NCBI GenBank assembly: GCA_020050835.1 | Contig: JAGVKB010000107.1 | Location: forward strand, 1-38,504 | Reading direction: 5' to 3' | Length of the DNA stretch: 38,504 nucleotides | Source of the DNA: Candidatus Obscuribacterales bacterium | Lineage (GTDB): Bacteria > Cyanobacteriota > Vampirovibrionia > Obscuribacterales > Obscuribacteraceae | Part shown: positions 1,721-22,392 of the stretch, one piece after another | How positions within the stretch are numbered: the first letter of the stretch is position 1 | How the letters are laid out: every line of letters begins with the position of its first letter | Position numbers and translations under genes: made by a program | Notes under the pieces: generated by a model | The model's input: the letters and a program-made list of their open reading frames with translations, nothing else | Databases searched by the model: none | Told to the model about the DNA's origin: nothing

Positions 1721-2536
1721 TCAGTCTACGGCGGTTAACTGTACCGAGTTAACCATTGAGTTCAAATAGTCCTTCAAGTTTTGAAGGTTGAATTCGCTGC
1801 CAGTTTCACTGACTATTTCGATTATGCGCGAACCGGTAATCACCCCGTCAGCGCCGAGCTCCAACATGCTGTGAGCCTGCTCGGGGGTGGACACGCCGAA
1901 TCCGACGCATACCGGCAGGTGGCTTGTCTTATGTACACTGGCGACGATCGCTTTGAGATGGCTGTCATAGCGCTCCTGGACACCGGTTATGCCGAGCCGC
2001 GAAACCAGGTACAAAAAGGCACCGGCATGTTGCAAGATCTGAGCCAAGCGATGCTCATCGGTCAGTGGGGAGACGATGAAAATCATCTCCACTCCGGCTT
2101 TGCGAGCTGCGTCTTGTAACTCGTCGGCGGACTCAACCGGCAGATCGGCGATTAATACTCCGTCGACACCAGCTTCTGCCACGCCGGCGAAGAACTGCTC
2201 CGGACCCTTGGCCAGGACCATGTTGTAATAGACAAGTAATCCAATTGGAATCTGCTCATCGATCTTGCGTACTTCCCGGATCAACTCGAGCGCATCGCTT
2301 ACCTTGAACCCAGAGGCAAGCGTCTCGAAGGCTGCCTTCTGAATCGTCGGTCCGTCCGCGATCGGATCGCTAAAGGCCAACCCCAATTCAAGCGCCGCTG
2401 CGCCTGATTCAATCATCGCTTGAATGATTTGCAAAGAGTTGCGCCGGTTCGGCCAGCCTAATAAGGTGAAAGGAATAAATGCTTTCTCTCCGCTTGCCTT
2501 CAACTGGGAGAATCTTGTTTCGTACCGGTTTGTCAT
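1721..2536 (-). CDS. trpA: Tryptophan synthase alpha chain
   Basis: TrpA cleaves indole-3-glycerol phosphate to indole and glyceraldehyde 3-phosphate and passes indole to TrpB through the alpha2beta2 complex. At 271 residues it has the normal family length. The catalytic region reads [17 protein letters not shown] near residues 50-66, giving the family's conserved catalytic Glu and Asp. The phosphate-binding GFGVSTPEQ and GADGVITGS segments are also present. The start codon overlaps the trpB stop by 4 nt (ATGA), which indicates translational coupling. It is the last gene of the trp operon. No clear terminator is seen directly after its stop. Confidence 0.97.
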
Positions 2537-3696
2537 TGTGCCATCACCTGTTGGAGATCTTTATCGCCGCGTCCCGAAAGATTGATTAAAATGGATTTTC
2601 CGGCGCCGCTGCCGGCTGCCAGCTTCTTGGCGAAAGCGAGCGCATGAGCGCTTTCAAGCGCCGGAATGATGCCTTCCAATCGGCAGAGTTCATGAAAGGC
2701 TTGGAGCGCTTCTTGGTCGGTTGCGGATTCGTAGCTGGCTCGTCCTGATTCTTTGAGAAAGGCGTGTTCGGGACCGACCGAGGGGTAGTCGAGTCCGGCA
2801 GCCACGCTGTAGGTTTCGTGAATCTGTCCGTCCTCGTCCTGCAGCACCATGCTCTTCATACCATGGAGCACCCCGATGCTTCCCTTGGCCAGAACGGCTC
2901 CATGTTCGTGAGTCTCAAGCCCCTTGCCTGCCGGTTCGACACCGATCAGCTTGACGCTTGGCTCGTCGATAAATGCCGAAAAGATGCCGATTGCGTTGGA
3001 GCCACCGCCGATGCATGCCAGCACGTAATCGGGAAGTTTATGGTGATTTTGCTGAAAGCTGTCTTTTGCTTCTTGTCCAATTACGCTCTGGAAGTATTTT
3101 ACGAGCGTTGGGAAAGGGTGAGGTCCAGCCGCCGTGCCAAGCAGATAATGAGTGTTGGCGAGGTTGGAGATCCAGTCGCGCAAAGCGTCGTTGATTGCAT
3201 CCTTCAGCGTCTTGCCGCCGGCGGTAACGGGATGCACTGTCGCTCCCAGCAAACGCATTCGAAAGACATTCGGTTTTTGCCTTTCCATGTCGACTTCGCC
3301 CATATACACTTCAGTTGTGAGCCCCAAAAGCGCACCGGCCATCGCAGTTGCCACACCGTGCTGCCCGGCGCCAGTCTCGGCGATCACTCTGGTCTTGCCC
3401 ATGGACTTGGCCAGAAGCGCCTGCCCAATTGCATTGTTGGTTTTGTGCGCTCCACCGTGAAGAAGATCTTCGCGTTTCAAGAAGATCTCCGCCCCCCATT
3501 GGTCGGATAGATTGCTGGCATGATAAAGCGGCGTCGGGCGACCGGCATAGTTGGTCAGGAGGTCATTCAACTTTTGTTGAAACGTGCGATCATCAACCGA
3601 GTTGAGGAAGGCTTCTTCGAGCTCCGCCAGAGCCGGCATGAGCGACTCGGGAACATAGACGCCGCCGAATGCTCCGAACTTACCTAAAGTACGCAT
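2533..3696 (-). CDS. trpB: Tryptophan synthase beta chain
   Basis: This is the PLP-dependent enzyme that condenses indole and serine to tryptophan. It is 387 residues, close to the roughly 390-400 of TrpB1-type enzymes. The N-terminus ([19 protein letters not shown]) is the standard TrpB opening. The PLP lysine lies in HGGAHKTNN near residue 83, the cofactor phosphate loop is GGGSNAIG near residue 230, and the C-terminal GRGDKDL is present. This is the classical TrpB1 form that works with TrpA rather than the TrpB2 form. It overlaps trpF by 13 nt upstream and trpA by 4 nt downstream. A GGAAAG-type ribosome binding site precedes the ATG at 3696. Confidence 0.98.
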
Positions 3697-4397
3697 CTTT
3701 CCGCTTCCTCTCGCACTGACTTACAGAAATTCTCCAGTCGACTCCAATCTTTTAGCCCGGGCTCCTTTTCCACGCCGGTCGCGACATCAACTCCGTGAAA
3801 GGAGACGATTCTCCCGCATTCTACTGCCTGGGATTGTGGCTTCGGTGTGGCATTAAATGTGGTGCCAGTCAGCCGTCTGACTACCGAACGCACATTGTCG
3901 GGCGTCAAACCGCCCGCAAAGAGGAAGTCGGGAATATCAGCCGGTGCGGACGCTGCGATGTCGAGCGCTCGAGCGAGCCAGTCCGGGCTGGAATCCAGCT
4001 TCGGTCGGTCCAGTAGAATCATCTCGACTACGTCTTTGTAGCGCCGGACATTAGCCCAATCGAAACGCTCGTCAATTGCCAGCGCCTTGATTGAAGGCAG
4101 TGCGAGCGCGGCTACCTGCTCCGGCGACTCTGCCCCATGATACTGGACGAGATCGAGTCCGACTGCAGTGAAGTGCTCCTCAATCTCTTTGCTGGGCGCG
4201 TCCTTGAAAACACCCACCAGTTTTGCCCTTCCCTTCAGCGCTGTCGCGATTGCTGTGGCGGTCTCGCGCGACACTTTACGCGGGCTGGCTTCAACAAAGA
4301 TAAAGCCGAGATATGATGCGCCAGCCGAGACAGCTGCTTCCGCATCGGCCAGGTTAGTCACACCACAGATTTTGATGGTGGTTGTCACTGTCTGCAT
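3684..4397 (-). CDS. trpF: Phosphoribosylanthranilate isomerase
   Basis: TrpF converts phosphoribosylanthranilate to CdRP, the third step of tryptophan synthesis. The N-terminal [26 protein letters not shown] carries the catalytic Cys of the KICG motif. A central LVGVFKD strand and the [12 protein letters not shown] and GVDVATGVE segments complete the TIM barrel; the last provides the conserved Asp and Gly-rich phosphate site. At 237 residues it is slightly longer than the usual 200-215, because of extra residues near the C-terminus. The start is ambiguous. The ATG at 4397 has AGGAG only 2 nt upstream, whereas a GTG at 4388 would overlap the trpC stop as GTGA and have 11 nt spacing. The ATG is listed because it is the stronger initiation codon. 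Confidence 0.95.
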
Positions 4398-5152
4398 AGC
4401 TCCTTCAAAGTTGAGTCGAGGTTTTTGGACTGCATTAAAGCCGAGCCGATTAAGAAACGATTGCAGTATGGCAAGAGCTTTTCGATGTCCTGTCGGTTCT
4501 GTATGCCGCTGGCGGAAACGGCTATCGCTGGAGGCGGGATGAGTGGAGCCAGTCTGCGAGTAGTGTCGAGATCGATTTCGAATGTATTGAGATTTCGATT
4601 GTTGATTAGAAGTACCTGCGGTGACAACTTGAGCGCCCTGCTCAATTCTTCTTCGGTTTGCACTTCGACGACGGGAGTCATGCCTAGTTTGACAATAAGT
4701 TGGTGCAGCTCTTGCAATTCCTCATCGGCAAGAATTTTGACAATCAGCAGCACCGCTTGCGCTCCGTACTTACGCGCTTCAAGGATTTGATACGGCTCGA
4801 GTACGAAGTCTTTGCATAGCACCGGATGTGGTGAATTGTTTGCGACTTTGCTGAGCAGTTCGAGACTGCCGTTGAAGTATCTTTTGTCTGTAAGGACGGA
4901 GATGGCGCTGGCGTAGCGGTTGTAACTGGCCAGTACTTCGTCAAGGTTTACTTCCGATCGCAATACTCCCGCTGATGGCGAAGCTGGCTTGAGTTCGGTA
5001 ATCAGCTTGAGACCCAGCGAATCAAGCGCCAAATGAAAGCTGGCGTTGCCGGCCGGCAACCCGCTCGCCAGAGCGTCTTGAGATAACAATGCCTTGCGTC
5101 TGGCTATTTCGGAGCGCTTGTTTTCCACTATTTCAAGCAAGATATCGGGCAT
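4385..5152 (-). CDS. trpC: Indole-3-glycerol phosphate synthase
   Basis: TrpC closes the ring of CdRP to form indole-3-glycerol phosphate. The open frame runs up to 5320, but the true start is the ATG at 5152. It has CGGAGGA just upstream, gives the typical N-terminus MPDILLEIVENKRSEIARRK, and yields 255 residues, the family norm. Family motifs are LITELKPASPSAG (the usual KxxSPSxG, with Lys at position 1), VLCKDFVLEPYQILEARKYGAQA with the catalytic Lys, NNRNLNTFEID and SASGIQNRQDI. It overlaps trpD by 20 nt and trpF by 13 nt. It is a stand-alone domain, not the TrpC-TrpF fusion of enterics. Confidence 0.96.
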   Translation of the reverse strand: MPDILLEIVENKRSEIARRKALLSQDALASGLPAGNASFHLALDSLGLKLITELKPASPSAGVLRSEVNLDEVLASYNRYASAISVLTDKRYFNGSLELLSKVANNSPHPVLCKDFVLEPYQILEARKYGAQAVLLIVKILADEELQELHQLIVKLGMTPVVEVQTEEELSRALKLSPQVLLINNRNLNTFEIDLDTTRRLAPLIPPPAIAVSASGIQNRQDIEKLLPYCNRFLIGSALMQSKNLDSTLKELCRQ

Positions 5153-6113
5153 AAATCCTCCGCGATTTTTCGAACAGAGCTCGGACTGCTCCACCGGCCA
5201 ACAGCTCGGCGGCGACTTTAACTCCTTCTTCGATCGAGCTGGCGAGATCACAGACATGAAATGCTGCTCCGGAATTGAGGCAAACCATCTTGTAAAAGCT
5301 CGATTCCTGGTCTCGCCCATCGATTAGCTGCTCAAAGATCTTAGCGTTATTCTCCGGTGTCGCTTCAAAAGGAGCGGCTGAACTGCTCGATGCGGGCTTC
5401 GCTCTGTACTCGGACTCGGCAATCTTATGAGGGGAGGCGGTGGTAATGTACGTGCTTCCATCTGCAATCAGCTCATCCATCCCGTTTTCGCCACGCACGA
5501 CGAATGCCCGGGTGCAGCCGGATGATTGGGTGAGGAATTGGGCCACCAGCTGTTGTACGTCGGCGCTGCACACTCCCAGGACTCGATACTCAGGGCGAGC
5601 TGGGTTGAGCAGCGGCCCAATCAAGTTGAAAATTGTTCGGGCTCCCAGCGTCTTCCTGATCGGTGCGAGCTTGGACAGTCCCGGATAAAATTGCGGTGCA
5701 TAGAGAAACACCAGCCCTGACTGCTCGAGAAGAGTGGGGATGTCTTCCAGCGGTAGCTTTCGAGGAAAGCCAAGCAGGTCCAACAGATCAAAACTACCGC
5801 TCTTGCTTGTGGCTCCGACATTTCCGCATTTCGTCACCTTCAGACCGGCTGCCGCCAGCACAAAGGAAGTGGTTGTGGAGGTATTGAAGTGGGGAAGACC
5901 GCTGCCGCCGGTTCCGGTGCAATCGACTGCGCCAGAGCCAAGCTTGTTTAGTGAGGCTGCTCCGGTTATTAGCATCTCATCAAAAGCCGCTAGAAATCTC
6001 TGCAAAAGCCCAGCGTCCAGCTGGTCGGGTGTAAGCGAGAGCAACGCGCTCTTCATCTCTGTTTCGGAGAGTCGACAATGAAGAATATCGCGTATCTGTG
6101 TATCGTTTAGCAT
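5133..6113 (-). CDS. trpD: Anthranilate phosphoribosyltransferase
   Basis: TrpD transfers phosphoribose from PRPP to anthranilate. It is 326 residues, near the usual 330-345, and is separate from TrpG. The N-terminal helical domain is followed by the glycine-rich PRPP loop CTGTGGSGLPHFNTST near residues 69-84. It then carries KCGNVGATSKSGSFDLLDLLG and, later, GMDELIADGSTYI with the metal-binding Asp-Glu pair. In the glycine-rich loop most family members have GTGGD; here the Asp is Ser, and a His replaces the usual Thr before Phe-Asn. The remaining active-site residues look intact, so activity is still expected. It overlaps trpG by 7 nt and trpC by 20 nt. Confidence 0.95.
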   Translation of the reverse strand: MLNDTQIRDILHCRLSETEMKSALLSLTPDQLDAGLLQRFLAAFDEMLITGAASLNKLGSGAVDCTGTGGSGLPHFNTSTTTSFVLAAAGLKVTKCGNVGATSKSGSFDLLDLLGFPRKLPLEDIPTLLEQSGLVFLYAPQFYPGLSKLAPIRKTLGARTIFNLIGPLLNPARPEYRVLGVCSADVQQLVAQFLTQSSGCTRAFVVRGENGMDELIADGSTYITTASPHKIAESEYRAKPASSSSAAPFEATPENNAKIFEQLIDGRDQESSFYKMVCLNSGAAFHVCDLASSIEEGVKVAAELLAGGAVRALFEKSRRIYARYLA

Positions 6114-6697
6114 TTGCTGATGAAGTTCTGAAGGATCTTTCCGCCCTCAGGAGTGCCAATCGACTCCGGGTGGAACTGAACGCCATAAATTGGTTTGCTG
6201 CGGTGTGCGAGTGCCATAATCAAACCGTGAGCAGCTTCTCTGGCGGTAACTACCAGCTCTTGCGGAAAGTTCTCTTCGGCAGCTACTAGTGAATGGTAGC
6301 GCATCGCTTCGAAATTGTCCGGCAGTCCGTCCAGCAGTGGCGATGGGCTGTCGATGCGAACATAGCTGCTTTTGCCGTGCACTATTTGCGGTGCACCGAC
6401 GACTTGGCCGCCAAGATGATGAACGATGCCCTGATGTCCTAAGCAAACACCTAAGATTGGGCAGTTTAAGAGGGTCTGATTCAGGATAATGTTTTTGCAA
6501 ACACCAAAATCCTTGTCGTTTGCCGGGTGACCCGGTCCCGGTGAGAGAACCAGGCGGGACGGCTTGAGAGCCAATAACTCCGACAATTCGATCTTGTCAT
6601 TGCGATAGACGGCGACACTTTCTGCTGTCCTTGTCTGGAGCATCTGGTAGAGATTGAATGTGAATGAGTCGTAATTGTCAATCAGAACTATCGGCAT
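6107..6697 (-). CDS. trpG: Anthranilate synthase glutamine amidotransferase component
   Basis: This is a class I glutamine amidotransferase that supplies ammonia to TrpE. The start is taken as the ATG at 6697, giving MPIVLIDNYDSFTFNLYQ, the family N-terminus, with GAGAGGG upstream. A TTG at 6718 would only add seven unsupported residues. The product is 196 residues, normal for the family. It contains LSPGPGHP, the nucleophile motif GVCLGHQ and the His-Glu pair in VQFHPESIGTPEG. The protein may also serve as PabA, since such subunits are often shared, but the operon position supports tryptophan synthesis. It overlaps trpE by 20 nt and trpD by 7 nt. Confidence 0.96.
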   Translation of the reverse strand: MPIVLIDNYDSFTFNLYQMLQTRTAESVAVYRNDKIELSELLALKPSRLVLSPGPGHPANDKDFGVCKNIILNQTLLNCPILGVCLGHQGIVHHLGGQVVGAPQIVHGKSSYVRIDSPSPLLDGLPDNFEAMRYHSLVAAEENFPQELVVTAREAAHGLIMALAHRSKPIYGVQFHPESIGTPEGGKILQNFISKC

Positions 6698-8150
6698 TGC
6701 TCTTTGCCCTCTCCGCAAGTTTTATCGCTTTCATGACGCTCATCGCTTTATTGCGCGTTTCTTGATACTCAGCGTCTGGCTTTGAATCAAAGACAATGCC
6801 GGCACCGGCATTCACGTGAGCATAGCCGTCCTTGATCAAGGCAGAACGAATGGCGATCGCTCCGTCGGCATTGCCAGCGAAATCGAAGTAACCAACGACG
6901 CCCGAGTAGACTCCGCGCTTTTCCGGTTCTAATTCGGATAATAGCTGCATCGCTCGAATCTTGGGGGCACCAGATACGGTGCCGCGCGGAAAGCAGCTCT
7001 GGAATGCATCGAAGCAGGTCTTGTCCTCGCTAAGTGTGCCGGTAATCTCGGTGGCCAGGTGCATTACGTGGGTGTATCTGGTAATGGTTGCGATTGCTCC
7101 GACTTCGATTGTTCCGGGCTGGCAGATTCTGCCGAGATCGTTGCGACCGAGATCTACGAGCATGCGATGTTCTGCAAGCTCCTTCTCGTCTGACTTAAGT
7201 TCGGCGGCGAGCCTCTGGTCCTCTTCGTCGGAGTCCCCACGCGGACGAGTACCGGCCAGCGCTCTGAGAACTGCCTGTCCATTCTGGCATTTTACGAAGG
7301 TTTCTGGCGAGGAGCCGATGTACGTAAAGCCGGGATACTTGAGCAGATAGCCGTACGGCGATGGATTGAGCGCCTGAAGAATCCGATAGATGTTCAAGTC
7401 TGGAACAGAGACCGGATGAGAGAAGCGATGAGAGACGACTATCTGGAAGACCTGACCTTCCTTGATGTACTGCTTGGATCGCTCAACCAGAGTGATGAAT
7501 TCGTCCTTGTTAAATGGACCTGTTACTCCGCTCCAAATTTCGTCATTGGTCAGGTGTTGTTCTCTGTCGGTCAGTGCAGCCAGCGTCGAGGGTTTGGTCA
7601 GTCGCTGGAGCAGCCCTTCGGCATGCTCGGCGCCTCTGTACGAGATAATCTTGATGCGGCGAAACTGGTGATCGAAAACGATTGCCGAATCATATAAGCC
7701 GTAGTAACCGTCGGGAACGCCAAAGGGATCCGCCTGCTGTTGAGGAATTCCTTCGAAATAACTGGTGGCTGCATATCCGAGATATCCGACCAGACCACCG
7801 GTGAACGGAAAGTCTATCTCTTGAGTAAACTTGCTGTATCCCTGCTCCTCCAGAAATTGCCTTAGAAATGCCAGCGGATTGGCAACTGGATAGCTCTTCG
7901 TCTGGCTGGTGATTCGGTCAATTACCTGGGCTTGACCGTTCTGGAAGGAGATCGTTTTGATTGGATCAACACCAATAAACGAATACCTGGCAAGTCTGTT
8001 ATCTCCCTCCGTGCTTTCGAACAAGAATGCCGTCGGCTCTTCCTGACTCAGCTTGTGATAGACCGAAACCGGAGTTCCGACATCGGACAGCAGAGACAGG
8101 ACGACGGGACTCTGTTTTCCGGTCATTTCGGATTGTGTTGCTCGTTGCAT
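6678..8150 (-). CDS. trpE: Anthranilate synthase component I
   Basis: TrpE converts chorismate to anthranilate, the committed step. At 490 residues it is typical. The N-terminal part has FLFESTEGDNRLARYSFIG, the LxES...S element that in this family binds tryptophan for feedback inhibition. The catalytic C-terminal domain has IGSSPETFVKCQNG, LAGTRPRG, DLGRNDLGRI, and FPRGTVSGAPKIRAMQLLSELEP, ending in YQETRNKA. These are the chorismate-binding signatures. It is the first structural gene of the trp operon, with its ATG at 8150 downstream of a leader peptide and attenuator. The SD-like AGG is weak and distant, so initiation may depend on leader RNA folding. The product is expected to be controlled at both expression and enzyme level. 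Confidence 0.97.
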   Translation of the reverse strand: MQRATQSEMTGKQSPVVLSLLSDVGTPVSVYHKLSQEEPTAFLFESTEGDNRLARYSFIGVDPIKTISFQNGQAQVIDRITSQTKSYPVANPLAFLRQFLEEQGYSKFTQEIDFPFTGGLVGYLGYAATSYFEGIPQQQADPFGVPDGYYGLYDSAIVFDHQFRRIKIISYRGAEHAEGLLQRLTKPSTLAALTDREQHLTNDEIWSGVTGPFNKDEFITLVERSKQYIKEGQVFQIVVSHRFSHPVSVPDLNIYRILQALNPSPYGYLLKYPGFTYIGSSPETFVKCQNGQAVLRALAGTRPRGDSDEEDQRLAAELKSDEKELAEHRMLVDLGRNDLGRICQPGTIEVGAIATITRYTHVMHLATEITGTLSEDKTCFDAFQSCFPRGTVSGAPKIRAMQLLSELEPEKRGVYSGVVGYFDFAGNADGAIAIRSALIKDGYAHVNAGAGIVFDSKPDAEYQETRNKAMSVMKAIKLAERAKSNADSSD

Positions 8151-8177
8151 CGTGCTTAAACCTACTTGGAATTGTTA

Positions 8178-8222
8178 CAAAACAAAGACCGCAGCTGTCG
8201 TATCTGGGCAAGCCTGCGGTCT
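8178..8222 (-). terminator. trp attenuator (intrinsic terminator upstream of trpE)
   Basis: On the minus strand the arms AGACCGCAG (8222-8214) and CTGCGGTCT (8194-8186) form a perfect 9-bp, mostly GC stem with a 19-nt loop. It is followed at once by the U-rich tract TTGTTTTG (8185-8178). It lies between the Trp-rich leader ORF and trpE, where a regulatory terminator is expected. Competing pairings are visible. CAAGCC in the leader (8288-8283) is complementary to GGCTTG in the hairpin (8214-8209). GACCGCA (8338-8332) duplicates the 5' arm, so it could pair with the 3' arm. Either could act as antiterminator. The pairing assignments are inferences; the hairpin and tail are visible. Confidence 0.85.
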
Positions 8223-8247
8223 CTTGGATTTTGGTGGGTGTTTTGAG

Positions 8248-8346
8248 TTAGATCAAATCGAATTGAGCACCGACCATGGCCTGGCTTGTCTGGGTTTCGT
8301 TCCACCAGCTCCACCAGATGCTCTTGTTGATTGCGGTCGTGTTCAT
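8248..8346 (-). CDS. trpL: trp operon leader peptide with tandem Trp codons
   Basis: This 32-codon ORF runs from the ATG at 8346 to the TAA at 8248-8250. Codons 11-15 read Trp-Trp-Ser-Trp-Trp (TGG codons at 8302-8307 and 8311-8316). Four Trp codons in five are far above chance and match the layout of attenuator peptides in enteric trp operons. The stop lies 25 nt before the terminator stem. A ribosome stalled on the Trp codons when charged tRNA-Trp is scarce would change folding of the following RNA and allow transcription into trpE. No good Shine-Dalgarno sequence is seen before the ATG. The frame is open further upstream (to 8433), but that part falls in a strong palindrome, so the ATG at 8346 is preferred. 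The peptide itself probably has no other role. Confidence 0.85.
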   Translation of the reverse strand: MNTTAINKSIWWSWWNETQTSQAMVGAQFDLI

Positions 8347-8380: not shown

Positions 8381-8439
8381 CGCCACTTGCAAACCGGCGA
8401 CTGACATATTACCATGTCGCCGCCGGTTTGCAAGTGGCG
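8381..8439. repeat. Long near-perfect palindrome upstream of the trp leader
   Basis: The arms CGCCACTTGCAAACCGGCG (8381-8399) and its exact complement at 8421-8439 form a 19-bp perfect stem. Within the 21-nt gap, GACAT and ATGTC pair again around a 6-nt loop, with only a small internal bulge. The structure extends to 24 bp. It lies 34 nt upstream of the leader start and 57 nt beyond the end of the upstream gene (8497). It may end transcription of that gene, but no T-run follows on the minus strand (AGCCGCCAAAATACC). It may instead be an operator, an RNase III site or a dispersed palindromic element. A TTGCAA that could act as a -35 box lies within one arm. Confidence 0.75.
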
Positions 8440-8496
8440 GTAGTGTTTACTCCATTGAAAGGGAAAGCGGTAAAGTCTCGACTCTGAGCGAGGTTG

Positions 8497-9693: not shown

Positions 9694-12600
9694 TTATGGT
9701 TGTACCGTTGAATACGCACCGTGTCCGGCCGTGACGTGATTGACGCAGACAGCCATCTTGATCAGCTTCTTGGAGATTTGCCGATCAAATGGGGCATTAC
9801 TCTTCAGAATTTTCGATAGCAATTCGTCGCGACCAAGCAAGGAGACCAAGGAGACTTCGCTGCGCATGATGGTTGATCCCTTTGCGATGTCTACTTGTTT
9901 TATTCGACGACGTCCGGTCGCGTCCCGCTTGAGCTCGCCAGGTACCGACCCGTCATTGGCACCGACAATAATTTCTTGACCGGACGCCAGGGTGGTTTGA
10001 TGTCGTCCAATAATTGCTTTGATCGAATGTCCTTTCGGTTCGTAGAGGTTGACTACTTTCAAGACCCCTGCCGAATTTTTGATTAAGGCGACCGAGCCGG
10101 GATCCAGCGATAGGGTGCTGGAGCCGCTCTTAACCACGGTTGCTTGACCGGCATGAATCAGCACTTCGCCGTCTTTCAGGTTCAGTATGCCATTCGATTC
10201 GATCGTCACTTTCGTGCTGCTTGTGTGTTTGACGGAACAGGACTTGGTAGTCAGTGTTTGAATAGCGAGCATCTGCGGTGAGGTGTTTGCCGATTGCAAG
10301 AACCTGATCGGCTTGAGAACTGCTTCGTCCAGCACGCCCGGCTCGGTAAAAGTATAAGTCTGCGCTGGACCGGATTGGTTGTTTGCAGTATGCAACTTGT
10401 GGCTGCCAGGTTTCTGCGCAATCGGGACAGACTTTCCGTTCATGCTTTGAATCACCTTTTCCCAGCGCTTCTTCGCAGCAGCGGTCAGGCAGCCCATATT
10501 GCAAACGAGCAACGGCTCTTTATTGGCCATCATCAGGCGATCCACTCTGGACTTGCGTGATTTGAGTCCGATATCAGCAACCGTGACTGCTCCGGCGATT
10601 GGCTCCCTGTCTACGCCATCAGTTGAGATCAGCTCTTCTTCTTCAACTGAGTTGGCTGCGATCACCAACTCTTCGCCGTTTGCTGCCGAGAGAGATTTCG
10701 ACTTGCCATTGGCTGTGACATTGACTGTGATGTTGTCGCCAGCAAGATTGACGAGGCGCACTACACCAGCGACCTTTTGCTCGAGAATGCCGGCGCTTCC
10801 GTTTGGAAGATCGACGCTTCCGAACATCGTGTTGACGTGAGTGCCCTTAGTGCCGGCTGCGATTGCCAAGCGACCCTCTCTAATCGTAACGCTGTGGTTG
10901 CCGGATGGCGCGAAAGTGCTTCCACCGCTGCCGACGATTACAGTGTCGTCTCCAAGATCGAATGAAAACGGCTGGCAAGCTCCGCCTGCGATATACCACG
11001 AACTGGATTGATCCGATTCGGAATTGTCGTTGGAGCCGCTGCCAGCGGCCATGATTGTCGGTGTGCATGGTGGTTGCGGTGGTGTTGGTTGCTCCTTGGG
11101 AGTGGTGTCAGTCTGAACCTTTTGAGTCTGAATCTGAGGTGTAGGTGGAATCTCCCTCGACTCCTGTGGTGGAGTCTGAGGAGGGGGCGGTGGCGGTGGT
11201 GGCGGAGGAGGTGGTGGCGACGATGGCGTCGACGGAGGGGGAGGAGGAGGCGGCGGCGGAGGAGGAGGTGGTGGTGGAGGTGGTGGCGGTGGTGGTGGCG
11301 GTGGCGGTGGTGGAGGAGGAGGAGGTGGTGGTGGTGGTGGTGGTGGCGGTGCAGCAGCTCCGGCAGCCGGAGCGAAGGCCAGCACTGCGCCAGGGCTCCC
11401 GAAATTGACTACCCCGCCGTTGATGTCAAAAATAGTGGCGCCAGCGATCTGCTCACGGAACCCGAAGTAAAGACCTTGCACGCTGACGGTGCCTGGATTG
11501 TCCAGGTTCTGAGTGAGGGATAGTGTTCCTACATCGCCGGCGTCGAATTGAACGGTATTTTCGAGATTCAACAAATTACTAAGAGTAAACTCTGGATTGT
11601 CAAAGTCGCGGTTAGCGAAGTAAGGATCGATCTGATTGACCATGTTGGTGTCAAACTTGGAGGCGGTGAATTGCACGCCACCACCAGTGAAGGTCAGCGG
11701 TTCGACGCCAATTAGATTCGCTCGAGCGCTGATGATAAAGAATGAGCCGAATATTGTCTCTCCAAACAGATAAACATTACCGCCATTTGCAGTAACTCTG
11801 GCGATGGCAGCTGGGCGCTCTTCAATTCCGGTTCCTTCATCTGAGTAGCCTGGTGCGCCGTAGATTCCCTGCAGGTTGATGAAGCCGCCAATTCCGGCCA
11901 GAAGATTTATGTCTCCTTTGTAGGATGTGAGTTCGGAGGCGATTATATTAATGTTCTTGGACTGGATGGTGATTGCTCCGCCCGACAGAAACTGTGAGTC
12001 ATTCAGGACGCCACTGCCATCGGGAATTGAATCGACCGGATTGCCCGCACTCACCGTACTGTGCGATAGAGTGACTGCCTGACCGGCGTTCATGGAAATC
12101 AATCCGGCAGTAGTTTGGATGGTCGAGTCGGCGACTGTGATCTGACCGGTTAGTGGTGCGGCATTAATTATAATCGGTCCGTTGGAGTTCAATGTAGTAT
12201 CCGTCAATGTGACGCTGCTACCGGACAAGGTAATCGGTCCAGCCGGGTTCGATTGGTCGAAGCATCCGGGGCAACCTGCTCCGATTAAGATTGAACGCAG
12301 TATGAGCTGTCCATTGGCTGAGATCTGGACCGGATTGCCGTTGCCTGCCAGCTCCCCAGTGTTGTATTCGTTCTGGGCGGAGCTAATCAGGGCGCCAGAC
12401 AGAACTAAGTTGCCGCCGGTGAAGTTGAACAAGAAGCCTTCGGGAGATGTTGCATCGATTCTACCTAAGGTGAGAACGGAAGCCATTACGCCCGGGCTAA
12501 TCTGTTCTTGCGGAAGTGAGCCGGTATCGAATGTAAATGAAGACCCGCCGAGATTCAGTTGCCCATGCAAGGGTCCTGAGCCGGAGACAACCACTGCTTG

Positions 12601-15600
12601 ACCGATTGTACCGTCGAAGTTATAGAGATTATAGAACGATTCAAGAGCTACGGATATATTCAAATTGATGCTGCCGCTCATTGTAGAATAACCAACATCT
12701 ACGCCCGGACGGCGAGCCGAAATAGTGCTATCCACCTGGAGATTGAGCTTGCCGGTGGTGGCGCGATTGATAATGAAGATTTTGCCATTGTTGTCGGCCG
12801 TAATGCTGCCTGTCACGAAGCTGTGTGGGCTGAGGCCGCCGACGACAAACAGTGAATCTGGATCCGGATCGCTGTAGATTATTTCGATGCTTCCTCCGTA
12901 ACCGACATTATTGGGAGCCACGCCGTTGGTAGTAACAGATCCATTAGCATCGATGTCGCCTGTCACTTGAACCTTGCCATTGGCGGCTAGCACATAGGTG
13001 GCACCTCCAGCTCCCTGTCCCGCACTGGACGGAGCTATGATTACATGTTGCATGTCCACAAACAGATCGTTGCCTGATATCAACCAGAGCGTGCCTCCGC
13101 CATAACCGTCCGGCGTGCCTGTACCGGCTTGCGTAGCTGAGATCTGCAATTGTCCGGATTGATTTCCTACAGAAATGTCGCTTTGGGAACCGCTTCCCAG
13201 CGTTGTGACCTTGATGGTGCCGCCTTGTCCGGTTCGGAAGGAGTTTGCGCTGAGCAGCAGCGGGTTGTTACCGGCGATGCCGGAGAGATCCAGTTTTGAG
13301 CCTACGATCGTGATGTTTCCACCCAGACAGCAGCCGGATTGGGGTCCCGGCCCGATCGCATCGACCGAGATGGTCGGAACGGAAATTTTCACTGTTCCGC
13401 TGAGAGTTCGATCGTCGTTTGCGGCGTTGAGTATGATCGAACCGCCTCTGGAGGCTGGCAGTTGGACCAGGAGATTGCTGGCTGACTCGATTGAGATTCC
13501 GCCGCTGCCCTTATTTGTCAGGCTTATTATTGCGCGGTCATCGCCCACGAATACACCTGCGAGATTGGTAGAGCTGGCGGAAAGTGTATGCGAGATGGTA
13601 AGTGCCTGGATGCTGGTGACGCTTACATTGATTTTTCCGGCAATGCCGCTGGTGCTTCCCCCATCGGCGCGCAGACTGCCGGCGAAGCCTAGGAGGTCCG
13701 GATTTCCCGGAAGCGGATTGAGATGTTTTATGTTGCCTTCCCCGCCAGTTCCCGCGATTAGATTGAAAACGCCCGCATCGCCAGTGGTGCCGCCTGGACT
13801 GACGCTGAGAGCCGACATCGTCCCAAATCGCAGGTCTCGTGCGGCGCTGGCATTGATTGTGCCGCCCATCCCACCGGCAGGTCCGCTCCGCGCGAAAGCT
13901 TCAATCTGTCCTTGATCTGAACCAAACGTCAAGCTCCCGTTTGTGGCATCTAGCGTAGTGAGAGTGATCGAGCCGCCGAGACCGTTGTCTGAGCCGCTCG
14001 CGTCGATCGTCAGTGGATTGGCTCCAATAATGGAGATTGACGAACCTCTCAGTGTGACGCTCCCACCCCTGACGCAGAACGAGCAATGGTTTGTTCCGCC
14101 AGAGATGATGCTGCCATCGGCGCTGGCTGAAAGCTCTCCGCCGACGACTGTCAGCGCTCCTCCGGTTGGATTATCGAAGGGATGAGCTGCCTCGATAGTA
14201 ATCGTAGCTCCACGCCCGTTGTGAGCATTGGCGACAATACTGTCGGCGGCAAATTTTAGACCGCCAGTGCCGTAATTTACAAAAGAGATTGTTCCGGCCC
14301 GGCCGCTGTCGTCAAAGAAGTTGAAGGTGGGATGGAATCCGGTGCTCGCTGCGCCGGAGCTCACGGAAAAACTATTGGTAGACAGGTCCAGCAACTGAGA
14401 GCTGTAACTATTGATGACAATCTGACCGGCATACCCTCTCCCCAGTCCGTCCGCTCCGCCGCCGCTGGCATTGAGTGTTCCTGCTCCGGAGATCGTCACC
14501 AGGTCGCTTGCGATAAGGCTGTAGCTGGCGCCGCCACCGTTGTTACCCCGCGGTCCGGCATCTAGCTTGGAGAGATCCAATATATTGATCGCAGTGCCAT
14601 TAACACTAATGCTGCCACCGTCACCGGAGTCGGAGCCTGTCGAACCGCCACGTGCGAACAACTGGAGCCGGCCGGCTCCGCTACCTACTTCGATCGCGCC
14701 GGCGCTGACACCGATAGTACCGCCGCGACCCTCACCGCCGGCGTCAGCAGTCAGGATCAGGTTGGTGCCGGCAGTATTCAACGTGCTTGCGGATAAGTAG
14801 ATGGTGCCACCTCTGAAATCTCCATCGGCAGAGGTAGAAAGTGCGCCGGTAGGAATAGTGAGCGTTCCGGCGGATGTGAGGGAGATATACGAACCGCCGC
14901 CGTCATGGGCGCTGGCACTCAGTGTGCCGATTGTGAGGTCTCCGTAAGCATAGATGCTAACGGAGTTTCCACTCTGTTCGGCAAAGCTGCCGGCGATGCC
15001 ATCATCGGTATTAATGTTTATGTTAGATAGGTTCAAGTGCTGACCTTCGGCGTTCTGATTCAGGTAGATTGTTCCTCCTCGCCCGAATCCTTGACCGTTG
15101 ACGCCGCCACCCCTGGCACTGAGCGCCCCGGCTGGCAGGGTGAGTATAGCGCCGCTGAAAGTATAGGTGCCGCCGCTGCCATTAGCTCCTAGTGGACCGG
15201 AGTTCATGAAGGTGTGACTTGTGACTGTTAAATTGCGTGCATAGATTGCAAGACGGCCACCGTTGCCTGATGTCGAACCAGGCGAGCCTCCGGTGGCGAA
15301 CATTTTGATCTGGTTGGCATTCTGTCCGACGACTACATCACCTTCCGGGCTGTAGATGTCTACATAACCCCCATCTCCTCCCCCGGCGCCGTTTGCGCTG
15401 AGGGTCAGGTTGTTAGTTACCACCAGGTCCGTTATGGTCAGCGGCAACTCGCCGCCGTTGTAATCACCGCCGTCGTTCTCATGGGCGTCTACCGACAGTG
15501 TGCCACCAAGAATTTCAAGCGTACCTACCGGCGGCGGGTTGCCTGGGAGCTCCTCTTCTGAGTTGCTGCCGGCGAATATCTCTATTCTTCCGCCCCCGCC

Positions 15601-18600
15601 GTTGTGAGCTTTTGCCGACAGTTGCGAGCCGTCTGCCAGTTTGATTCCGCCGCCACCTAAATTCCACAGATACAGCCTTCCACCGCGGCCTTCTCCTCCG
15701 GTGCTGCCGGTACCAGCATCGGCCATTAAAGTGATTGTCGACAGATCGAACCGTTGGTTGTTGTGGACCTTAAGTGAGATCACACCGCCGGCTCCGGAAC
15801 CTGTATTGTCGAAGCCACCGCCGAAGGCGTTCAGTATTCCGGCCGGCAGCACGATAGTACCTGTCCCGCTCGTCCCGGCAGTCAGTTCAATTGTCCCTCC
15901 GCCGCCGTTTAGGCCAAGCGGAATTACATTGAGCGCGGACATGTTGTTTACATTGATGCTACCGCCGGTCGTGATTTCAATTCTGCCGCCGTCGCCGAAG
16001 TCGGAGCCGGGTGAGCCGCCATTGGCGAGAATTTGTACTTCTCCGTCATTGATCCCCAATGTGAGGTTGTCGCGAATATCGAGGAGGACCTCCCCACCTT
16101 CGCCATCGCCGGATGCCTTCGCGGAAAGAATCAAGTTACTGGTTGTGTTCAAGACCGAGCCCGCGATTCTAAGTGTTCCGCCCATTGACTCGAGTCCGCT
16201 CGCATCGACAGACAGTGTGCCACCATTTATGGTGACCGAGCCGTAAGAAAGCGTTTGCTCCTCTTCTGAATACTCGTCGATGGCGCTGCGAGCCAACAAT
16301 GAAATGGTGCCGCTTTCGCCATTCATTGACGCCACTGATAGACTTTCACCTGAACCGATCTTGATCCCGCCGGTGCCTGTGTTTTGTACCAAGATTGATC
16401 CGCCGCTGCCTTGCTCTAGTCCGCTCATCGCTGAAACCGATGCAGCCGATATGTCCAACTCTTGGGAGTTGTGGTTGGCGAACAAGATGACGTGCCCGCC
16501 ATCACCGAAGCCTTCACCGTTGCTGCCGCCACCGCGAGCATTGAGATTGCCGGACAATAGCCGGACAGTACCGTCGCCAGTCGGGCGCACACCGGCAAAA
16601 TCTACATCGCTACCACCCTCTTCGCCTTCATCATTGGAGCTCTTGTATGAGAACTGCCAGCCCCCTTCCTTTCCGTATTCAGTGAAGCAGCACTCATACT
16701 CGTTTTGAAGGTTGTTGCAAGTGGGACAATCGGCGACAAGTATGCCGTCGGCTCCTTGCAAACTCCCGGCGTTCAGTTCATAGCGAGCGCCAGCGCCATT
16801 GGTTCCGCGGCTATGGGCGTCGATCGCCGCTGCATCGTGAACGGTTAGATTTTGTCCAGCATTAATAAGGATGGTTCCACCATCGACGGTATCGCCGTTC
16901 GGTCCACTGAGTGCGAAAAGGCTTACCTGACCTGGAGCAAGACCGATGTCCAGATTGCCTTTGGTCTGATCGTCGAGCTCATTGGCCGGGTGATCGTAGG
17001 CAGTTAAAATCACCGACCCGCCGTGTCCGGAGTCGGTTGAATCTGCTTGCAGTGTTAGATGAGTATTTGTCGCTACTCTCAAGTTTTTGCTTGTGAGCGA
17101 AATTAGACCACCATCGCCGCTACCAGAGCCGTTGGCGCTGAATGTAATCGTATTGGGCGTGAGACCGCCGTCAATCACTACGTTCGATCCGGTCACAATA
17201 ATTGCTCCGCCAATGAAGTCGCCGCCTCCGGCATTGGCGGAAAGCCCGCTGTGAATGGTGATCGGACCGGAAGGGAAGGTGAATTGACCGCCAAGGCGAA
17301 TGTCGTCTTGAATTACTGTGGCGCTAATGACGATGATTCCGCCTTCTCCTACGTTCGAATTGACTGACAGCGATGAATTGTCACCGAGCGTGATACCGCC
17401 GGCTCCGGCGCTCTTGATTGAAATCAGTCCACCACCGCCTTGCGGTCCGCCTTCTGCAGACAATGAGCCGTCGATTGAGATAGCCGAGCTCGGGTGCGAA
17501 CTGTAGGACATAATGTTGATCAAGCCACCGTAGGCATCGCCCAATCCATCGACGTTGATGAAACTTTGTTGGTCGATAGTGATACTGTCGCCATAAATAT
17601 TTACTGCACCACCGCCGGTAGGATCATCAAAGTCTTCTATCATGCCATTCAGAGTAATGTTGCTGTTCATGAGATGAACAGAACCAGGTCTTGCAGAAGC
17701 CGTAACAAATGGGCTCAGTTCGCCCCAACCGTTGAGGGTGATTATTCCGGCCGACTCTTCGTTTGTCGAAGCTGATAGCGTGGCGTCAGTCAAGGTGATT
17801 CCGCCCGAGCCGTTATTGGTAATCTCAATTGCGGTGTCCGGTGTGGCAAAGCTCGAGCCCAGAAGTCCGTTTGAGATGATTTGGCCGGTAATTGTGATCG
17901 CAGCAAGCGAACTCCTCGCTGTGATGGATACCCGCCCCACCTTAAGAGACTGTCCAGATCTGTCGACTCCAATGGAGCTTGTGTCTAGAATTCCACTGAA
18001 GTTCACAGTCCCTTCGCCGGCTGCTCCGCCTATGAAGTTGACAGTGGCTCCGCCGATATTGGGAAATTCAAAATCTGGCAATAGTTTGATCTCGTCAGCA
18101 TCAACGTTTAAGGTGCCGCCGGCTGAAATAAGTACACCTCCTCCGGAGACAAAGCCGACTGAGGATCCCTGTCCGAGCTGGTCGAAAAAGAAGTTTTCCT
18201 GCACGCCCTGATTCAGGATTGAAATCTTTCCATCACCCGCACCGATGTTGATGTTGCCTCTCTCCGGAAGTGCCGCGGTTGGCCCGTCAAAAGTTGCTAT
18301 TAAAACGGCGCCTCTCAATCCGGCCGGCAAATTCTCGTAGTCTGGGTTGAGAACGGGCGAGGCGCTGGTGTTGATCGTTAAGTGCCCGCTTGTGACAGTG
18401 AGAGTCGATGCAAATATGAAGATGCCGCCTCCGTAAGTCGGTCTCTGTTCGGTGCCCTCTACCCCGTGCCCCTGAGCTGACAGAACTCCGCCTGCTATAT
18501 TGATTGGACCGCTGGTCTCTGTGTTTGCGTCTTCGAAATCGCCTTGACCGTTTAGACTGCTGGCATTCAAGAATAGAATTCCGCCATCTCCATTGTGGGC

Positions 18601-21600
18601 TTTAATACTTAAGTTGTCGGGGCTACCAACATTGATGCCGCCGGTGCCCCGGTTGGCGACCAGAATACTGCCGCCGTCTCCGCGATTGATGGTCGATCCG
18701 TCATAGACAGTGGTTTGAATTCCGGCGTCGGCCACCAGCTTGGTTTGGCTGATATCAAACAAGGAAGAGCTGCGAACAGACAGGACGAGTGCTCCACCTT
18801 GCCCAGTACCAGCCCCGTTGAGGCCACCGCCGCTGACATCGAAGCTGTTAAACTCGCCTTCGGCCAGCGCTGGCAGCATGATAGTGCCGTCACCGGCAGC
18901 TCCGGCAGTGAGATAGACAGTCGCTCCGGTAGCGTTGGATGCAAACACGTTGAAATTGATACTTACCATGTCGTGAACGGTGAGATCGCCGCCGGAGACT
19001 ATCTCTATGTAGATAGGCTGAAACAAGAAGCCAGCTCCAGCCAATCCGACATCAGCCTCCCTGGCGCCGGTGGTGGCCAGTATCTGGATCTGTCCAGAGT
19101 CGTCTCCGAAGTCCAAGCTATTGTTGCTGATGAGTTGAATTCTGCCGCCATCTCCAACCGGGCTGCTTACGTCGAGTGTTAAAGAACCTCCAATCACTTC
19201 GATTTCGGATGCTGCAATGTTGATTGTCCCGCCTGATGCCGAGCAGAAGAAGCATTCTGCAGGAAGTACTCCTACTGCTGAGAGCACGCCGGCACCGATC
19301 TCTACTGTTCCGAAGGAGGATACTGCGGCATTGCTGTGGTAAAGGTCCGCGTTGAGTTTGATCACGCCGCCTGTGTTCTTAAAGCCATTGGCGGAAACTG
19401 TGTTTGCACTGGCCAACTTGATTCCGCCGCCACCACGATTGTTGATGTTGATCAGTCCGCCGACTCCGCCAAACTCAGTATCAAGTGGAGCGTCTGCTCG
19501 TATTTCGATCGACGATACATCCAACATCTCTGCACTGTTGGCGGTCAAGAAAATCTGTCCGCCGTTGCTTGAAGTTTCTACAAGCGAGTTAGAAGCGTCA
19601 AGGACACCGGTCGTATCGAAGTAGATGTTGCCGTCTCCTGCTGTGCCTGCCTCCAATACGTAGAAGCCGCCCGAGCCGTAAGTCGGTTGGCTGGTGACTG
19701 CAGCCAGCTCCTTAACGATCAGATCATGACTGGCGTGGACTGCGACGCGACCATCGCGACCATTAACTCCACCAGCGTGGATCTCCAGCTGATTGTCGCC
19801 AGTGCCTAAAACGATATTGCCGGCAGGGTCCAATCCCGAAGTAGGCACCGCACTCGTTCTAATTGCCACGTTTTCGGCTGAAAGCACGGCACTGCCTGAG
19901 CCTACCGGTCCTTCGACGGCAATATCGCTCGCTACGATCAGCAGGTCACGATCGAAGATGGTCAGATTGCTGCCGCCGGTTAAGTAGACGGAGCCATCTC
20001 CAACCATTGAGTTCGTCGCACCATGGGCAGCGATCAAACTTAAGCTGCTTCTGCCGCTGGTGGTGACTACCGACGGGTCCGGGAAGGCGATTCCGCCCGA
20101 ACCGAAATTGGCTATTGACAGTTGACCTGAGCTGAAGCCTGGCATGACCGAAAGTGTCCCGCCCAATCCGTTGACTGGACTGGCCGGCGAGCCGACTGTG
20201 AAGACTGCATCGCTGACGGATGTGGCTGTGAAATTAGTCAAGACGCTCACGTTACCGTTGATGGCAACATTGCCGCCGGCAAACAGGGAGACTGAGTTGC
20301 CGGTGAGTCTACCGGTTGAAATCGAGCCTGGCGCCACCTTCGGCATTGTGACTTGGTTGACGTGAGCACTGTACGTCAAGAAATTGGGATCGTTCAGGTT
20401 GGCCCCAGTGAACCGGGTCTGGGCATCGGTCGCCACCGCGGCTGCGCATCCAGCTGCGCAAGTATCGATCTGGCCGTTGGCGTGAACATAGACGGTGGTG
20501 TTTGTCCGAGCTCTGGCGACAGCTAGGTATATGTGCCCTGCGGAGCCCGCTATGCCAGGGTTGGAGTTGATCTCTCCGACCGTGATGGCGTTGGTAACGT
20601 CGTCGCTGCTGGCTAATCGCCTGTCGGCAATGATCGTGACGTCACCGCTGTACTTATAATTGCCGGCGCCTTGATTGGCGGCGGTGGTGTTGATCAGTCC
20701 GTTGTCCGGAAGAAGCACCTTCCCGGTGTCAGTGCCAGAGCCTTGCAAGGCGATCATTGTGACATTGCCGCCACCGACATGACCGTCTTGTCCAACCGGC
20801 AGGATGCCGTGGCTGTCGATCAATGTGACAGGCTTGACCGAAACCAGGTCTATCTTTCCGCCAGTCGAGCTGGCAGTCAACACGGAGCCGAAACTAAATT
20901 GAGTCGGCGCGCTTCCGCCTGGAAAGTTTGCTCCCGCGATCAACGTGATATCTCCACCGCCGTTCACGCCGCTACTGCTGGTGTCAATCGTCAGCGGTCC
21001 TGGATTGCCGGACTCCGATGAATCTACCGAAATGTCGCCAGAAGCGATGATGGTAAGTGGATTGCCGCCGGTGACTGAAATGTCATCGGTCAGGAAGAAA
21101 TTGCCGTTGGCGGTATAGAGCGGGTCGCCGGAAAGCTCGACGCGGCCCAGGCGCAGATCGCCGGCAGTCGTGTGCACTTCGGTCGCAGTGCCATAACTGT
21201 TAACCACGCCTGTAATGTGTTCTGCAGACACTGTGACCTTGCCATGCCCGGAAAACAGGTTCAACTGTTTGCTCAAGATGTCGCCACCATTGAGATGAGT
21301 GTCGAAGCTGCCCTTGAACAGCGAGTCACGGAAGTTGATCGAGCCCGCCAGCGCTTCCAGTCTGCCGGCCAGATTGTTCACAACCAGAGTCTGCGCGAGT
21401 ATGGAGGCGAGATTTATGTTGCCGGTTGCCGAGGCGATCGTTCCGGAATTGATGATGTTGCCGGCGCCCGCAGCGAGATTGATGTTGTTGACCGCTTGCA
21501 TGACGGCGCTCTGCCCGGCATTGACGATCGAGCCGCCGGCTACAGCGGTCAACGCTCCGGAGCTTTGAATCGTTCCGTGATTGATAATGTCTGTCAGAGC

Positions 21601-22233: not shown

Positions 22234-22392
22234 CTTTCTCTCACCAGATTGATTAACAGCCCGTGCGGACCTGATCGCGGATGCCTGAACTTCAAGCGAT
22301 CCGGTCAAAACTTCATGCTTGCCTAATATGTGCCCGATCGGCGACGTTTTTAATCAGTTTGCTAGTTAAATGCCAGAAGGGTGAAGCACTGC

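Follow-up and report, generated by a model that had tools for sequence, protein, structure and literature searches.

Comparative evidence for a ribosome-mediated trp attenuator in an apparently non-photosynthetic branch of the Cyanobacteriota

Introduction

How do bacteria sense tryptophan when none of the familiar regulators can be found in their genomes? T-boxes and the TRAP protein are the usual means of Trp control in some other phyla. In Escherichia coli, the trpL leader lies before trpE and has tandem Trp codons at roughly the tenth codon of its short ORF, and an antiterminator (regions 2:3) competes with an intrinsic terminator (regions 3:4). According to Naville and Gautheret (2010), Proteobacteria and Actinobacteria were the only groups with known leader-peptide systems until their own Firmicutes case (PMC2965389), and Korolev and co-workers (2016) wrote that reliable data on attenuation were lacking for cyanobacteria (PMC4833913).

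The question is raised here by a stretch of DNA of 38,504 nucleotides (the window), taken from a genome assembly of 154 contigs and 7.0 Mb. On its minus strand, a short ORF rich in Trp codons and a hairpin precede a complete trpEGDCFBA operon. A first reading of the letters alone (the sequence-only reading) had described the arrangement as a classical trp attenuator and had guessed at a non-photosynthetic relative of cyanobacteria as its host. We asked what the leader does, and where else it occurs.

Results

To place the window, we searched 117 genomes sampled from its phylum for PsbA-type reaction-centre genes; Synechococcus elongatus served as positive control. Matches were present in 47 of the 117 genomes, with none in the window's own class. 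As psbA-bearing genomes occur among its members, the phylum was identified as Cyanobacteriota. The window's class appears to be non-photosynthetic, which fits the earlier guess about the lineage.

The operon downstream of the leader starts with trpE (6678-8150, ATG at 8150), which scored 507 bits against TIGR00564 (cut-off 517.7). Scores above cut-off were obtained for trpG (6107-6718; TIGR00566, 173.8 bits), trpD (5133-6113; TIGR01245, 226 bits), and trpB (2533-3696; TIGR00263, 618 bits). The best matches for trpC (4385-5320) were indole-3-glycerol-phosphate synthase models, covering residues 57-309, and those for trpF (3684-4397) were phosphoribosylanthranilate isomerase models; both genes scored below the strict cut-offs. 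The true start of trpC probably lies inside its ORF. The last gene, trpA (1721-2536), was assigned from its own sequence and position. Downstream of trpA, in the same orientation, lies an ORF read as a MATE-like transporter (68-1591), which could belong to the operon. Elsewhere in the window, an ORF of 4204 codons on the minus strand (9694-22308) resembles a filamentous-haemagglutinin-type repeat protein and contains a long proline run.

The leader ORF, also on the minus strand, comprises 32 codons (8248-8346; translation MNTTAINKSIWWSWWNETQTSQAMVGAQFDLI) and ends with a stop codon at 8250-8248, 24 nt ahead of the hairpin. Codons 11-15 read UGG UGG AGC UGG UGG (8302-8316), such that W11, W12, W14, and W15 (8316-8311 and 8307-8302) form the run WWSWW. 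The coordinates of the sequence-only reading, which had described a 32-codon ORF with four Trp codons in five, were correct. The exact 15-mer TGGTGGAGCTGGTGG has one further copy in the genome, which was read as unrelated coding sequence in a different frame.

We then compared the leader with those of related genomes. Upstream regions of trpE could be read for 29 of the 30 TrpE-bearing genomes of the same family, and 28 of these 29 regions contained an equivalent short ORF with adjacent Trp codons (WW). Such an ORF was found in 1.6% of dinucleotide shuffles and in 1 of 29 regions on the antisense strand. The alignment of the 28 leaders was anchored on WW, which is common to all of them, and in most a third or fourth Trp codon lies nearby.

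The apparent lack of a Shine-Dalgarno sequence had been taken as a sign of a variant scheme. This was not borne out, as sites below -4 kcal/mol occur in 7% of family leaders versus 14% of random positions. Weak sites are normal among these leaders, and we rejected the absence as a special feature. In Sinorhizobium meliloti, the trpL ORF lacks a Shine-Dalgarno sequence and is functional because transcription starts at the ATG itself (PMC7298713). No promoter matching the sigma-70 consensus was detected upstream of the leader in the window. A long inverted repeat (CGCCACTTGCAAACCGGCGGCGACA...TGTCAGTCGCCGGTTTGCAAGTGGCG, 8381-8440) lies just upstream of the leader; it has no T tract, is unique in the genome, and could serve to end the upstream gene or act as a regulatory site.

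The hairpin between the leader ORF and trpE (region 3:4, GAGACCGCAG...CTGCGGTCTT, minus strand, 8185-8223) has the features of an intrinsic terminator and runs into the T-rich tail TGTTTTGT (8177-8184). Its GC-rich stem was correctly located by the sequence-only reading, along with the tail, but has 10 bp rather than the 9 counted there, the final pair being G-U. The folding energy was -16.9 kcal/mol, compared with an average of -10.1 for shuffled sequences (z -2.8). In all 28 family leaders, the ORF is followed by a hairpin resembling a terminator and by a T-rich tail. Across this set, 91.7% of cells in the terminator helix were paired, and 5 of 9 pairs had changed on both sides. Compensatory cells numbered 18; 500 shuffles averaged 5.3, with none as high.

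These data bear on a reading in which the leader ORF is regulatory through translation or Rho-dependent termination, with ribosome position altering the accessibility of the trpE start or the access of Rho instead of an intrinsic terminator. In some relatives (L033), little distance separates the hairpin from where trpE is estimated to begin, which would agree with such an arrangement. We nonetheless consider it improbable. All 28 leaders keep a covarying, GC-rich hairpin with a T tract, and several relatives have 60-150 nt between the end of the hairpin and the estimated trpE start, a distance at which it could not mask the start codon.

Attenuation by transcription termination needs, in addition, a pairing that competes with the terminator. 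The ORF continues past the Trp run with codons complementary to the 5' arm and loop of the terminator. In the window, CAAGCC (region 2; 8288-8283) is predicted to pair with GGCTTG (region 3; 8214-8209), and both lie exactly where the sequence-only reading had put them. In many relatives the partners are CCGGGTAAGC and GCTTACCCG. Among 16 genus representatives, the region 2:3 duplex averaged -17.8 kcal/mol for native partners versus -14.5 kcal/mol (sd 0.63) for swapped ones (0 of 20,000 permutations). The window leader's own partner ranked 5 of 28 among possible partners.

Within a 7-bp antiterminator core, 164 of 175 cells were paired (permutation p ~0.007, genus representatives). Covarying partners were GGTAAGC/GCTTACC, GGCAAGC/GCTTGCT, GATAGGC/GCCTGTC, and GACGAGC/GCTTGTC. 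These pairs were counted from separately anchored cores, as the MAFFT alignment had shifted the shorter GCAGCTTACC terminators by one column. The leader peptides of many relatives share a conserved PGK motif, for which the RNA pairing is probably the simplest explanation.

The folding scheme is an ordinary 2:3 versus 3:4 switch. A variant had been proposed from an early copy of the terminator arm, GACCGCA, which does sit at 8338-8332 in the window leader. However, ACCGC upstream of the Trp codons was found in only 4 of 28 leaders, where shuffles gave 6% per leader, and the copy was rejected as a general part of the switch. The comparison of related leaders that the sequence-only reading had recommended came out in its favor for both the Trp codons and the hairpin. 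At the level of compared sequences, it demonstrates a leader ORF with its Trp codons, a predicted terminator, and a mutually exclusive, covarying pairing, all conserved family-wide.

Folding with a stalled ribosome had also been recommended. We modeled a transcript ending at the terminator loop, with region 4 yet to be made, and varied the position of the ribosome. Region 3 was captured upstream with a mean probability of 0.96 for a ribosome stalled at the first Trp codon and 0.94 at the last of the run, compared with 0.31 for a ribosome at the stop codon. The window leader alone gave 1.0, 1.0, and 0.07, respectively. Mean capture in the native leader set (0.94) exceeded that of all 60 shuffled sets (maximum 0.83), while the window leader alone differed from shuffled upstream RNA with p 0.07. 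As shuffled upstream RNA already captures region 3 (mean 0.75), the folding model carries little weight by itself.

Equilibrium folding at full length with ribosome masks yielded the terminator in nearly every ribosome state. It was set aside as a test of the switch, being uninformative when the terminator is almost always the most stable structure. Dominance of the terminator at full length implies that the switch would depend on co-transcriptional timing.

Tandem Trp codons, an intrinsic terminator, an exclusive antiterminator, and Trp genes downstream are thus found together, and the designation as a classical trp attenuator has gained strong comparative support. We conclude that a ribosome-mediated transcription attenuator very probably controls trpEGDCFBA through the supply of Trp-tRNA. 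From the sequences we infer translation of the leader ORF, a transcription start ahead of it, and Trp-dependent read-through. A ribosome would translate the 32 codons as RNA polymerase moves through the leader. A shortage of charged tRNA-Trp would stall the ribosome within WWSWW (8316-8302), leaving CAAGCC free to pair with GGCTTG. The antiterminator would then take up the terminator 5' arm, allowing polymerase to read into trpE. With Trp in good supply, the ribosome would advance and cover region 2, and the free arm would form the hairpin that, with the T tract, ends transcription.

We also examined whether Trp might be sensed by other means. T-box RNA (RF00230), TRAP (PF02081), and TrpR above cut-off (PF01371) were each found in 0 of 50 family genomes, while control genomes were positive. 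A single weak, partial match to TrpR was seen (G071). No Rfam family reached threshold in the window, including Trp_leader (RF00513). A reading in which a T-box, TRAP, or TrpR senses Trp and the leader ORF is incidental draws on the established role of the first two in some other phyla; it is largely refuted by these searches, and we regard it as highly improbable.

The distribution of the leader follows that of trpE. TrpE was found in 30 of 50 family genomes. The 20 genomes of this family (f1) without a TrpE match include several that are at least 90% complete, and Trp auxotrophy may thus be widespread among family members. A covariance model of the leader matched 28 of 30 TrpE-bearing genomes versus 0 of 20 without TrpE. 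As the model was built from the same 28 leaders, matches in trpE genomes were expected; the informative part of the search is the 0 of 20, together with the single match per genome at trpE. Of the two misses, G008 has a trpE without a leader, adjoining a divergent gene with little spacer, and in G067 the contig ends at that point. UGG codons and hairpins are short features that in a single genome might be a chance frame next to a constitutive terminator or spacer, but conservation in 28 of 29 regions, restriction to trpE genomes, and a covarying antiterminator refute this on comparative grounds and leave it hardly any probability.

Additional leaders were identified at other loci, with gene names taken from reading of the ORFs. 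Matches of the covariance model lay before three further targets: in G002 a divergent, additional trpS; in family f37 an aroF-trpE operon; and in G030 a GNAT acetyltransferase gene (leader peptides MTFTQTTQKQIWWQLGTNKVQACVIQINSA, MSQTPVISRKSPQWTWWRLQNKRLQDWFLR, and MSLHYTQRASVWWRWSPALRLCCRVF, respectively, each followed by a stop codon). In G030, the WW leader and terminator occupy approximately 1400-1650 on the minus strand of L082. A second, divergent TrpRS occurs in a few family members (L118 in G002:C18, L119 in G024, and L120 in G066). The copy in G002 has its own WW attenuator; none was seen on reading the copies in G024 and G066.

Two genomes of family f11, from another class of the same phylum, carry trpE leaders with the run NWRWWW and a CAGTGGC/GCCACTG pairing. 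No reaction-centre gene matches were found in these f11 genomes. In all five extra leaders (G002, f37, G030, and the two from f11), capture of the arm was greater in the stalled state (0.83-1.0) than in the stop state (0-0.51). No comparable leader was seen at the other trpE loci inspected in the phylum, mostly from photosynthetic genomes, and the covariance model had no matches outside the window's class in 244 phylum genomes. Weak matches in family f5 (E 5e-4 to 0.01) were taken as chance. A small Trp-containing ORF before trpE in genus g125 of f5 (L092, L099) was likewise rejected; it resembles a small protein, and no switch was apparent by eye.

Discussion

On balance, our data favor the view that ribosome-mediated Trp attenuation is established in two or more non-photosynthetic classes within the Cyanobacteriota and is not seen in sampled photosynthetic members. 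Among its targets would be trpE operons, aroF-trpE, and an auxiliary trpS, perhaps together with an acetyltransferase. As the leaders of the two classes have no obvious RNA sequence in common, attenuation may have evolved in each of them separately. While the mechanism is old and textbook, its conservation across the non-photosynthetic cyanobacterial branch appears to be unreported. No published report of Trp attenuation for this lineage was found in open papers, a search whose coverage excludes most subscription journals.

A set of 28 covarying leaders from a deep, non-photosynthetic branch makes it possible to test whether attenuation by leader peptides is of ancient origin or has been reinvented several times. 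Leader attenuation would also imply tight coupling of transcription and translation in this branch. The leaders offer a ready prediction of the Trp regulon for a lineage whose searched genomes yielded no T-box, no TRAP, and no TrpR above cut-off.

The leader shares with E. coli trpL (RF00513) a short ORF, a 2:3 versus 3:4 switch, and a position directly before trpE. The sequences are unrelated, however, and here the Trp codons form a WWSWW run in a family without TrpR above cut-off. Another difference from E. coli trpL is that region 2 forms part of the ORF, immediately behind the Trp codons, which leaves PGK in the peptides of many relatives. Attenuators before trp operons and trpS in Actinobacteria (Corynebacterium and Streptomyces) have double or triple UGG codons and GC-rich terminators (PMC1262725). 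They resemble the present leaders in their multiple-UGG leader peptides, GC-rich terminators, and targets (trp operon and trpS). They differ in phylum and leader sequence, and here the trpS case is confined to one genome and a second, divergent TrpRS. A further parallel is S. meliloti trpL, where trpE is subject to leader attenuation without transcription repression (PMC7298713). Attenuation of trpE by a leader is common to both, although in S. meliloti it controls trpE(G) only.
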